Part shown: piece by piece, positions 835-33,747 of the stretch
How positions within the stretch are numbered: the stretch's first letter is position 1
How the letters are laid out: every line of letters starts with the position of its first letter
Assembly: GCA_001825335.1 (NCBI GenBank)
Contig: MHWA01000020.1
Span: 1-33,747 of the forward strand
Length of the DNA stretch: 33,747 bases
Source of the DNA: Candidatus Zambryskibacteria bacterium RIFCSPLOWO2_01_FULL_35_19
Lineage (GTDB): Bacteria; Patescibacteriota; Minisyncoccia; Phycocordibacterales; WO2-35-19
Direction of reading: 5' to 3'
The notes under the pieces: model-generated
Seen by the model: only the letters and a program-made list of their open reading frames with translations
Databases searched by the model: none
What the model was told of the DNA's origin: nothing
Position numbers and translations under genes: made by a program

Positions 835-1902
835 ATGGAAAACAAAATTATTCGTGTGGCTATAAATGGTGCTGGTAGAATTGGCCGAGCTTTTTTGCGT
901 CTTGTAGAAAATAATCCGCAAATAGAGGTAGTGGCTATAAATGACTTGGGTAATATAGAAAATATTGCTTATCTTTTGAAATACGATACAGCTTATGGGG
1001 CCTTACAGTTTGGAGTGAAAGTAAGTGATGACAAAAAGAAATTATTAATTAGTAAGTCCCACTTCGCTGAAGCTTCGCGGGATACTCAAGAAATAAATTT
1101 CTTGAGTGAAAAAGAGCCAGCCAATTTACCTTGGCAAGATTTAAATATTGATATAGTACTAGAATCCACAGGAGCTTTTACTAAATTTGAAACAGCTAAA
1201 GCTCACATAACAGCCGGAGCCAAGCGTGTAGTTATCACCGCTCCTACCAAAGATTCACCAGCAGATGATACTCAAGCTATGATACTTATGGGTATTAATG
1301 AAGAGAAATTAAAAACCTGCCAGATTTCCTCAAATGCTTCTTGCACTACAAACGCCGGCTCACCGCTTATACAAATTTTGAATGAAAAAATCGGCATAGA
1401 AAAAGCAGTTTTAAATACCATACACGGCTATACCGCTAGTCAAAGCATAGTAGACGGACCAAACAAAAAAGATTGGAAAGAGGGTAGAGCGGCCGCTCAA
1501 AATATAATCCCCACTTCTACCGGAGCCGCTATTGCTGTCACTAAAGTCTTGCCAGAATTAGAAGGCAAATTTGACGGCGTAGCTATGAGAGTGCCAGTGG
1601 TAGCTGGCTCTATAGTAGACGTCACCTTTATAGCCAAAAGAGAAACAAATGTAGAAGAAATAAATAATATTTTAAAAGAAGCATCCAAAGAAGAGCGCTG
1701 GCAAGGCATTTTTGCGGTTACCGAAGACCCAATAGTTTCCAGTGACATCATTGGCTCTCTTTATGGCTCTATTGCTGATTTAGGTTTAACTAGAGTAATA
1801 GATAAAAATCTGGTCAAAGTCTGCGCTTGGTATGACAACGAAATGGGCTACACCGCCACTCTCATCAAGCATGTTTTGAAAATGGGAGAGTATTTGAAGT
1901 AA
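835..1902 (+). CDS. gap: Glyceraldehyde-3-phosphate dehydrogenase, type I
   Basis: RVAINGAGRIGRAFLR, SNASCTTNAGSP, WYDNEMGY; ATG at 835 preferred over GTG at 820 because TATAAT lies at 823-828. Confidence 0.95.
   Translation: MENKIIRVAINGAGRIGRAFLRLVENNPQIEVVAINDLGNIENIAYLLKYDTAYGALQFGVKVSDDKKKLLISKSHFAEASRDTQEINFLSEKEPANLPWQDLNIDIVLESTGAFTKFETAKAHITAGAKRVVITAPTKDSPADDTQAMILMGINEEKLKTCQISSNASCTTNAGSPLIQILNEKIGIEKAVLNTIHGYTASQSIVDGPNKKDWKEGRAAAQNIIPTSTGAAIAVTKVLPELEGKFDGVAMRVPVVAGSIVDVTFIAKRETNVEEINNILKEASKEERWQGIFAVTEDPIVSSDIIGSLYGSIADLGLTRVIDKNLVKVCAWYDNEMGYTATLIKHVLKMGEYLK
1057..1082 (+). repeat. Palindromic repeat family P1 in gap
   Basis: TCCCACTTCGCTGAAGCTTCGCGGGA, encoding part of SKSHFAEASRDTQ. 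Confidence 0.85.
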
Positions 1903-10630: not shown

Positions 10631-10864
10631 ATGAAAAAAGAAATTCACCCAGAATATTATATTGACGCTAAAGTAAGCTGTCTTTGCGGTAATAAATTTA
10701 GCGTTGGTAGTACTCAAAAAGAAATAAAGGTAGAAATTTGTAGCGCCTGCCATCCATTTTTTACTGGTAATGAAAAAGTGATAGATTCTGCTGGTAGAGT
10801 AGAAAAATTCAAGGCTCGCAGAGAAGCCGCTAGCAAAAAAACAAAAAGCAAAGTAAAGAAATAA
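10631..10864 (+). CDS. rpmE: 50S ribosomal protein L31
   Basis: [38 protein letters not shown]. Confidence 0.95.
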
Positions 10865-10983
10865 AACTCTTTCTTGTCACAAGTTTTATAGTGCACGGAT
10901 ATTTTTTTGCTAAAAAATTCCTCGTGCTCGCTCCGTCGAGACTCGCAAGGCACTCTAAAACTTATGACTACGACGAGTTTTAT
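10861..10983. repeat. 123-bp foldback element between rpmE and prfA (family P2)
   Basis: Nested inverted repeats ATAAAACTC/GAGTTTTAT and AAGTTTTATAGTGC/GCACTCTAAAACTT (13/14); core shared with 31139-31198. Confidence 0.8.
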
Positions 10984-10990
10984 TAAAAAC

Positions 10991-30170: not shown

Positions 30171-32240
30171 TTATACAAGTTTAAAATCCAAAGTTTTGCG
30201 GGTAAGGTCAGCAGAGACAAGGCGGACACGGAGGGAATCACCAAGGGAGAATTTCTTTTTGGAATTTTGCCCAATTATAGCGTAATTTTTTTGGTCCAGT
30301 TTGTAGAAGTCATCGCCCAAATCTTTGATGCGCACCAACCCTTCCACTTTAGTATCAGGGTCTTCGACATACATACCCCATTCGGTCACTCCAGAAATAA
30401 CAACATCAAATTCTTCTCCGATTTTATTTTGCATAAATTCTACTTGCTTATATTTGATACTATCGCGCTCCGCTTCTTGAATAGTAACTTCTTTATCACT
30501 AGCGGCTACTGCAATCTTTTCAAATTTTGCTATTTCATCTTTAGCAACAGGTAAATTTTTGATATGTTTTTCTAAAATTCGATGTATTAAAAGATCAGGA
30601 TAACGACGAATAGGAGAAGTAAAGTGAGTATAATATTGAAAAGCTAAACCAAAATGCCCTATATTTTTTGTAGAATACACCGCTTTAGCCATACTACGAA
30701 TAGTTGCAGTTTTTATGAGTGATTCGGAAGCGTGACCCTCAATTTGTTTCAGAAGTATATTTATATCTTTAGCCGAAACCTCTCCGTTGTGAATTGGTAA
30801 TTCATGACCTAAAGCTCTGACAAAAATCGCCAATTCTTCTATTTTCTCCATCTTTGGTAATTTGTGAATACGAAAAATAGAAGCGCCACCTCTTTTACCT
30901 ACCTTATCACTAATAAACTTAGCCACTTCTCTATTAGCAAGAAGCATCCACTCCTCAATCATTTTCATAGTGTCAAGTCGTGGTTTTTTATAAATCCTTA
31001 TTGGTTTACCTTTGTCATCTAATTCAAACTTAACTTCATCTGTTTCAAATTCTATGGCTCCATTTTTTTTGTTTTCTGCACGATAAATATTGGCAAGACG
31101 GTTAAGTTCTGAAAGTTCCTGAAAAAAACTTCCTGAGCGTGCCTTGCGCAACTCGACGGAGTGAGCAGAGGAATTTCCCACTAGGGAAATATCCGTGCTA
31201 AGGGAAGGAATGTTTTTTTCAGGAACTTTTTGATCAAGAATTTCCTGCGCCTCTTCGTAAGAAAATCTTTTATCTGAATTTATTATTGTCCTGCCAAACC
31301 AACGCTCCAAAACTTTGCCAGTATTTTTTTCAATATCAAAAACAGCCGAAAAAGCATAGCGATCAACATTTGGTTTAAGTGAACATAAATCATTACTTAA
31401 AATTTCAGGAAGCATAGGAATTGTTCTGTCTACCAAGTATGTCGAAAAACTTCTATTTAGAGCCTCTTTATCCAAAGGAGTATCAGGACGTACAAAAAAA
31501 GAGACATCGGCTATATGAACACCAACTCTTATTTTACTGTCACCTAAATCTTCATATGAAAGTGCATCATCAAAATCTTTAGCATCCGCTGGGTCTATTG
31601 TAAAAGTAGTGATATCGCGGAAATCCTTTCTGTTTGTAGTATCAAAGGGCATTTTTGACACTTTTTCTGCCTCTGCTTCTACTTCAGAAGGAAAATTATA
31701 AACAATACCCTTATCCAAAAGGATTGAACGCATCTCTGTTTCGTGTTCGCCCTTTTTACCAATAATAGAAATAATTTTACCTTTTGGATTAAGATTTGGA
31801 TTGACCCAATTTATCTCTACTAAAGCTTTTTGCCCAACATCTGATGTTGGATTAATATCCACTTCTTTATAAAATTTAAAATCATCTGGCTTAAAAAATA
31901 TCCGAGAACCGGATTTTTCTATTGTTCCGACAAATTTAGTTTTATTTCTTTTTATTATCTTAGTGACTCTGCCTTTTTTTCTGCTTGCCCCGCGAAGCTT
32001 CTGCGAAGTGGGGTCTTTACCTATAACCTCTACTTCTACTTCGTCTTTATCTAAGGCACAATTTAAATTTTCTTCAAAAACAATAATATCATCACCCATC
32101 CCTCGACTAGCTCGGGATCCCGCCTCTACGGGCGTGACAAAACCAAGCGGTTTAGCTGTAATTTTGATGACACCTTTTAAAATTTTTGATGAGTTGGTTT
32201 TTTTATTTATTATTTCTTCCTTTTCTCTTTTTTTATGCAT
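30171..32240 (-). CDS. rnr: Ribonuclease R / RNase II family exoribonuclease
   Basis: TIDPADAKDFDDALS, GVHIADVSFFVRP, RTIPMLPEILSNDLCSLKP, FTSPIRRYPDLLIHR, C-terminal S1 domain. Confidence 0.95.
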   Translation of the reverse strand: MHKKREKEEIINKKTNSSKILKGVIKITAKPLGFVTPVEAGSRASRGMGDDIIVFEENLNCALDKDEVEVEVIGKDPTSQKLRGASRKKGRVTKIIKRNKTKFVGTIEKSGSRIFFKPDDFKFYKEVDINPTSDVGQKALVEINWVNPNLNPKGKIISIIGKKGEHETEMRSILLDKGIVYNFPSEVEAEAEKVSKMPFDTTNRKDFRDITTFTIDPADAKDFDDALSYEDLGDSKIRVGVHIADVSFFVRPDTPLDKEALNRSFSTYLVDRTIPMLPEILSNDLCSLKPNVDRYAFSAVFDIEKNTGKVLERWFGRTIINSDKRFSYEEAQEILDQKVPEKNIPSLSTDISLVGNSSAHSVELRKARSGSFFQELSELNRLANIYRAENKKNGAIEFETDEVKFELDDKGKPIRIYKKPRLDTMKMIEEWMLLANREVAKFISDKVGKRGGASIFRIHKLPKMEKIEELAIFVRALGHELPIHNGEVSAKDINILLKQIEGHASESLIKTATIRSMAKAVYSTKNIGHFGLAFQYYTHFTSPIRRYPDLLIHRILEKHIKNLPVAKDEIAKFEKIAVAASDKEVTIQEAERDSIKYKQVEFMQNKIGEEFDVVISGVTEWGMYVEDPDTKVEGLVRIKDLGDDFYKLDQKNYAIIGQNSKKKFSLGDSLRVRLVSADLTRKTLDFKLV
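31112..31229 (-). repeat. 118-bp foldback element in rnr (family P2)
   Basis: Perfect 18-bp inverted repeats AAAGTTCCTGAAAAAAAC/GTTTTTTTCAGGAACTTT around a core shared with 10891-10953. Confidence 0.85.
31988..32013 (-). repeat. Palindromic repeat family P1 in rnr
   Basis: CCCCGCGAAGCTTCTGCGAAGTGGGG; other copies at 1057-1082, 33295-33320, 33334-33363. Confidence 0.85.
32099..32132 (-). repeat. Repeat in rnr N-terminal region (family P3-like)
   Basis: CCCTCGACTAGCTCGGGATCCCGCCTCTACGGGCG encodes PVEAGSRASRG between GFVT and MGDD. Confidence 0.55.
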
Positions 32241-33006: not shown

Positions 33007-33294
33007 AGAAAGTTCATTGACATACCAAGAAATATAATAAGTACAAGAAAAAGAAACTACTAGCTTTGAGCCGTGGTAAGGTTTGGTTAGTAGTTGCAAG
33101 TTCCAATTTTTAAGGAGTCTCATTTTTGAGACAACTATAAAAATTGAGGATGCTGATTTTTTAAATAAAATCAGCGCCCAAATTTTTATCTAGTTTATTA
33201 AAACTAGAAAGTGATTTTAGTAGCTAGGGTCAAAACAAGAATTTCAAAATAAGGTATTTTTTGTTTTGTTCCGTTCAAATTTCGAAGAAATTTG

Positions 33295-33363
33295 CCCCGC
33301 GAAGCTTTTGCGGAGTGGGGCATATTAACTCAACCCCACTTCGCCCTAACGGGCTTCGCGGGG
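33295..33363. repeat. Two P1 palindromes in opposite orientation in the 16S leader
   Basis: CCCCGCGAAGCTTTTGCGGAGTGGGG (33295-33320) and CCCCACTTCGCCCTAACGGGCTTCGCGGGG (33334-33363). Confidence 0.85.
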
Positions 33364-33380
33364 TAAAATTAAACTTCGTT

Positions 33381-33747
33381 TAATTTTAGAGTTTGATCCT
33401 AGCTCAGGATGAACGCTGGCGGCGTGGATAAGGCATGCAAGTCGAATGGGTTTAGACCCATGGCGAACGAGGTAGTAACACGTAGGTACGTACCCTTTAG
33501 TTGGGCATAACTAGCCGAAAGGTTAGATAATTCCCAATGGTCCCTGAGACTTCGGTCGAAGGGTAAAGATTTATCGCTAAAGGAACGGCCTGCGACCTAT
33601 CAGCTAGTTGGTGAGGTAATAGCTCACCAAGGCTATGACGGGTAGGGGGGGTGAGAGCCCGATCCCCACCGATGGAACTGAGAAACGGTCCATACACCTA
33701 CGGGTGGCCGCAGTCGAGAATCTTCCGCAATGGGCGAAAGCCTGACG
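33381..33747 (+). rRNA. rrs: 16S ribosomal RNA, 5' part, truncated by window end
   Basis: AGAGTTTGATCCTAGCTCAGGATGAACGCTGGCGGCGTG from 33388, through CCTACGGGTGGCCGCAG. Confidence 0.95.

Follow-up and report, generated by a model that had tools for sequence, protein, structure and literature searches.

The window, the whole 33,747-nucleotide stretch analysed from Candidatus Zambryskibacteria bacterium RIFCSPLOWO2_01_FULL_35_19, carries a GAPDH gene at positions 835 to 1902 of the plus strand. The open reading frame is intact, encodes 355 amino acids with the Pfam domains Gp_dh_N and Gp_dh_C, and contains a 10-codon insertion; the protein reads KKLLI-SKSHFAEASRDTQ-EINFLSEKEP. Measured against homologs the insertion is exactly 30 nt (1057 to 1086, conserved strand minus), made up of AGTA in the place of a tag followed by a 26-nt hairpin, with edges ambiguous by a few bases within 1054 to 1086. 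A preliminary description had estimated about 39 nt, having taken in three native codons (N-E-K type) when it delimited SKSHFAEASRDTQ.

The 10 inserted residues are missing from 17 aligned named homologs and from 8 genomes of the same family, and the 30-nt empty/filled difference is seen solely in this genome among those compared. The closest named homolog, from Ca. Zambryskibacteria CG10_34_34, is 90% identical. Solved GAPDH structures also show a 10-residue gap at the insert (phmmer, PDB). The earlier claim of an in-frame palindrome insertion is borne out by these comparisons, since homologs without the repeat share none of the inserted residues. In an AlphaFold2 model (mean pLDDT 88.6), the insert lies between strands 69–73 and 84–90, with residues 78–82 below 50; it is predicted to form a flexible extension, a loop at a β-hairpin turn.

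The inserted DNA forms a hairpin, P1 (1057 to 1082), whose sequence is TCCCACTTCGCTGAAGCTTCGCGGGA. The plus strand resembles a poor palindrome because a G–T wobble and a GAA/GAA internal loop fold on the other strand, where CCCGC-GAA-G..C-GAA-GTGGG gives a proper hairpin. The full minus-strand form, defined from the fold and an 8-pair consensus, is TCCCGC-GAA-GC-TTCA-GC-GAA-GTGGGA. With short flanks, the folding energy of the GAPDH copy is −14.1 kcal/mol on the conserved strand and −8.1 kcal/mol on the other. A symmetric inverted-repeat pattern (CCCRCTTCG..CGAAGYGGG) returned no matches and was abandoned for a reading of the other strand (CCCGCGAAG..CGAAGTGGG). On one strand the element consists of a CTTG tag and YCCNNCGWAGC-NNNN-GCGAAGNNGGR, a hairpin with the GAA/GAA internal loop; the general unit is CTTG, or a degenerate tag, followed by YCC(N)(N)CG(W)AG-Y-loop-R-CG(N)AG(N)(N)GGR. 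The tag, which is the 5' flank of the conserved strand, is exactly CTTG in only 37 of 93 distinct copies and AGTA in GAPDH; neither GTAG nor CGTC is among the 25 commonest tags listed for those copies.

The stem shows strong compensatory covariation. Across the 93 copies, 99.2% of 744 stem cells are paired, against at most 52.5% in slid controls, and changes on both sides affect 90 cells, compared with 16.4 for shuffles and no more than 34 for slid controls. That alignment was fitted to a covariance model, which leans the counts towards structure; in an unfitted alignment of 23 copies, 100% of cells are paired.

Further copies lie in the same window. The 20-nt core of P1, with at most 3 mismatches, occurs three times in it and in none of 100 shuffles. 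A covariance model built from 23 copies finds four copies at 36–49 bits, the next match scoring 8 bits; the GAPDH copy scores 47.9 bits at 1054 to 1089 on the minus strand. A second in-frame copy lies in the RNase R gene (30171 to 32240, minus strand; Pfam RNB). It occupies 31984 to 32013 on the plus strand, with a canonical CTTG tag at 31984–31987 and the hairpin at 31988–32013, and scores 49 bits; relatives are without the 8 residues PTSQKLRG that it encodes. The remaining two copies are upstream of the 16S rRNA gene and oppositely oriented. In the first (33277 to 33320, plus strand), an adjacent hairpin, AAATTTC-gaa-GAAATTT at 33277–33293, is followed after one base by the element hairpin at 33295–33320. 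The second (33334 to 33387, minus strand) has its hairpin at 33334–33363 and, after one base, an adjacent hairpin at 33365–33387.

Other repeats and insertions were also observed. In genome G004 the RNase R gene (L136) has a different insert at the very site of the window's element, and genomes G003 and G006 have RNase R inserts at other positions; the site may be a hot spot for insertion. The window's RNase R gene holds, at 32100–32160 on the minus strand, a second insertion, VEAGSRASRG, which has no counterpart in relatives and contains an unlike palindrome, ATCCCGAGCTAGTCGAGGGAT. At 10860–10984, at the start of a release-factor ORF, there is a 35-nt inverted repeat, 83% complementary, with its arms 55 nt apart.

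The element is widely dispersed. The genome of origin has eight matches to its core CCCACTTCG..CTTCGCGGG, four on each strand, and none to the reversed-pattern control; four other genomes of the family have the core too. The covariance model yields 19 copies in the genome of origin and up to 20 in others, with hits in 34 of the order's 148 genomes. A strict pattern, CTTGYMCNNCGNAGY-N(2-24)-RCGNAGNNGKR, is present in 121 of 380 Patescibacteria genomes, and its reversed control matched nothing in any genome listed. In the phylum of a Clostridiales genome, whose genomes are two to three times the size, 1 of 399 carries it. The GAPDH insert is a copy of an element that roughly a third of the sampled Patescibacteria genomes contain. 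No claim is made that the element is restricted to Patescibacteria, since further copies occur in IMG/VR contigs whose host is unknown. Copies were also observed to be frequent in IMG/VR contigs classed as viral (L217–L296). Phage records gave no match and plasmid records no full match, Thermus plasmids giving only weak matches covering 77%. A literature search returned no paper with the inserted peptide or DNA strings, an absence that is no proof of novelty. That the insertion is an assembly or chimera artefact of a metagenome-assembled genome can hardly be credited: the window and its relatives do come from draft, multi-contig genomes, but the insert keeps the reading frame, and the family recurs, with covarying stems and without a single match to the reversed-pattern control, in more than a hundred assemblies made independently.

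In-frame copies were observed in a number of protein-coding genes. These include GAPDH, RNase R, UvrC (two copies, in an N-terminal extension), RF2, an RlmI-like methyltransferase, ValRS, RsmA/KsgA, UvrA, uracil-DNA glycosylase and TrpRS. The TrpRS copy (L210) has the cleanest edge: removing CTTGTCCGCCGAAGCTTCAGCGAAGGCGGA (CTTG plus 26 nt) leaves GKGN-CFFFIADLHALT, and the alignment to PDB has a gap at the insert. The methyltransferase copy (L008), minus CCTG and 26 nt, reads SAG-AKVTHVD. Of the 35 strict copies located within ORFs 150 codons or longer, 34 have a length divisible by 3 and 30 measure exactly 30 bp; outside ORFs the length is divisible by 3 in 32 of 47 (Fisher p = 0.0013 vs inside). 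Relative to the ORFs, 22 copies are antisense and 13 sense. The commonest form of the element has four of six frames without stops, and the inserted peptides differ by frame and strand (SHFAEASRD, PTSLKLRG, PREALAKWG and SAFAKASADK). Since the 30 bp of the common unit divide by 3 and four frames are stop-free, insertions into genes are read through as about ten extra residues. Such insertions persist at places where the protein can accommodate a loop, the GAPDH β-hairpin turn being one.

Copies also adjoin the 5' or 3' ends of tRNA genes (L036, L072, L197–L205). In genome G202, three loci carry head-to-head dimers in the same arrangement, with spacers of about 22 nt. The G202 dimers (L197–L200) are directly upstream of tRNA genes and have a common palindromic spacer, TGGTCTATAAACCA; in genome G384 (L202–L204), three identical copies adjoin the 3' ends of different tRNA genes. 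Copies in a putative RNase P RNA gene (L121, L150, L070) apparently lengthen a helix, the gene having been assigned by visual inspection for conserved motifs (GAGGAAAGTCCGAACA, for instance, in L121 and L070).

Adjacency to tRNA and 16S genes, together with the strong structural covariation, could suggest that the hairpin, rather than being a mobile element, is a functional RNA signal that acts in processing or attenuation. This interpretation is improbable: copies of the element run antisense (22) as well as sense (13) to ORFs, sit in frame inside conserved domains of unrelated essential enzymes, are missing from orthologs and are scattered in position, and an Rfam scan of the GAPDH region gave no relevant match.

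A second hairpin stands beside P1 in GAPDH. Hairpin 2 (1084 to 1107) is ACTCAAGAAAT-aa-ATTTCTTGAGT, with arms of 11 nt and a loop of 2, one base from P1. The preliminary description was right that both hairpins are present, although it gave hairpin 2 arms of 10 and a loop of 4; its statement that the right arm is native also stands, the distal arm being GAPDH coding DNA for N-F-L-S. Hairpin 2 is one of three perfect hairpins (arm at least 11, loop at most 6) in the window, against 0–1 per shuffle. Among 144 copies, 10 have on their tag side a perfect hairpin with arms of at least 7 that stops exactly one base short of the element, where random placement within the same loci would give 0.65; on the tail side, none of the 144 has a perfect hairpin at the one-base position. 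The adjacent hairpins are unrelated in sequence, for example ACTCAAGAAAT in GAPDH, GAGTCTAAT in L040 and AAACGACC in L061 (putative TrmD). Because the statistics on the second hairpin, here and below, were devised after the GAPDH case had been seen, they are a lead and not a proven mechanism.

One origin for both hairpins would be local, through template switching or fold-back copying of the GAPDH flank, with no mobile element involved. For hairpin 2, with its native distal and derived proximal arm, the evidence is compatible: only 3–6 of the 8 pairs of the inner stem are paired in eight GAPDH relatives, and random substitutions from the three relatives tried give a perfect stem with a probability of about 1e-4. 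The one-base spacing in 10 of 144 copies points the same way. P1, on the other hand, was not copied from the GAPDH flank, because its sequence matches hundreds of copies elsewhere, including in other genes of its own genome. In addition, 134 of the 144 copies are without such a neighbour of arm at least 7. As an account of the whole locus, local copying is very improbable, a shade more so than an RNA signal; the earlier suggestion that the flank was copied in inverted form fails for P1, a copy of a phylum-wide repeat, and fits hairpin 2 no better than a landing-site explanation does.

The latter adds to the mobile element a preference for landing at the foot of pre-existing single-strand hairpins, hairpin 2 having preceded the GAPDH insertion. 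Its targets would be terminators, the rRNA leader, rnpB helices and tRNA ends. Ten of 144 copies abutting a perfect hairpin at one spacing, several copies in structured RNA contexts (L121, L150, the 16S leader) and others at tRNA ends speak for it, as does the report that some known REPs lie inside target palindromes (PMC3733652). Yet no GAPDH relative has the palindrome, and the majority of copies lack an adjacent hairpin. Moreover, rnpB and rRNA leaders are rich in hairpins anyway; without the four rnpB-like or 16S leader copies six adjacent hairpins remain, still above 0.65 (Poisson p ~6e-5). Such a preference is possible, though it is given well short of an even chance. Still more doubtful is the proposal that some insertions go together with the making of a perfect second hairpin from the target flank, one base away. 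If true, it would imply transposition via fold-back synthesis or hairpin-foot targeting, which is not described for REPs.

As a whole explanation, the GAPDH insert is very probably a copy of a dispersed, mobile and mainly selfish palindromic element. The evidence for mobility is presence and absence between species. The element may be non-autonomous DNA, mobilised in single-stranded form as a hairpin that an enzyme acting in trans recognises, HUH/Y1 transposases (REP- or IS200-like) being the likeliest class by analogy with REPs; the tag at the hairpin foot would serve as a guide or cleavage site. Selection would filter copies in genes, and those beside tRNA and rRNA genes might have been co-opted as RNA hairpins. 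This hairpin-guided route has perhaps slightly less than an even chance of being correct, and is inferred because CGTC repeats likewise have no associated transposase and the GTAG tag guides TnpA-REP cleavage.

Y1_Tnp genes are present in 9 of 9 family genomes, and their number does not follow element copy number: genome G006 has 10 Y1 genes and 0 strict pattern hits. A covariance model search of Y1 loci found no examined Y1 gene with the element hairpin on both sides; the two copies near Y1 genes lie upstream of one (G000:C14) and inside a neighbouring RF2 gene (L055). Y1 loci were considered as REPtrons of the element and rejected, their flanks mostly carrying other palindromes. At L047, L049, L056, L096, L105 and L107, Y1 genes of about 220 aa have gene-specific short perfect palindromes, mostly on both sides (for example CCAAGGTT..CCTTGG and GAAGAAGGG..CCCTTCTTC), likely a separate element family.

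Although the genomes of Patescibacteria rank among the smallest in bacteria, a tiny and probably selfish palindrome recurs in their essential enzymes and next to their RNA genes. It is tolerated in the enzymes because it is 30 bp long, and amounts to an experiment of nature in how well GAPDH, UvrA, RF2, RNase R and tRNA synthetases accept insertions. The element explains recurrent odd peptides in Patescibacteria proteins, such as AFAKASADK, and these can lead annotation and phylogeny astray. It also poses the question of which enzyme moves a transposase-less, REP-like hairpin.

Among known systems, the element shares most with REPs and their relatives. It is a short, dispersed hairpin within 20–40 bp (a 30-bp unit with 19 copies in the genome of origin, and covariation), and it forms head-to-head dimers (three in G202); single copies occur too, as does a tail-to-tail pair in the window. 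Like GTAG REPs (RAYT/TnpA-REP), it has a tetranucleotide at the hairpin foot, head-to-head dimers and dispersed copies (PMC3733652, PMC6006769); in those REPs the tag beside the hairpin foot is the guide needed for TnpA-REP cleavage (PMC6006769), and intragenic copies are reported in repair and tRNA-synthetase genes (PMC3733652, PMC6006769). It differs from them in having no GTAG/GTGG tag, no flanked Y1 (RAYT) gene at the searched Y1 loci, and a low copy number of about 1–20 per genome. The subterminal hairpin and short guide sequence of IS200/IS605 family ends, and of non-autonomous elements derived from them, are a further likeness, suggesting single-strand recognition, although no two-ended element of that type, with a transposase between hairpins, was found. 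Quasipalindrome correction, or template switching, could explain hairpin 2, whose derived arm matches the native one, but cannot produce P1.

CGTC REPs, including the Rickettsia palindromic elements (RPEs), are likewise short tagged palindromes, some in frame as extra residues, with dimers common. They include RPE-4 and RPE-6, RPE-1 being longer; they have no associated transposase gene, though Y1 genes occur in many species, and Patescibacteria are not among the phyla listed for them (PMC3733652). As in RPEs, the palindrome is found in frame in protein-coding genes (GAPDH with 30 nt, RNase R, TrpRS and others). The tag sets it apart from the RPE families, being CTTG and not CGTC; the stem starts with YCC, not AT, and the 30-bp unit has a CG(W)AG internal-loop motif. 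The element works like a REP or RPE and is not filed as a GTAG or CGTC REP, because its commonest tag, CTTG (37 of 93), is none of GTAG/GTGG or of CGTC, TGTC and CCTC at one end. The GAPDH insertion is real, and it was made by a new family of tagged palindromes.
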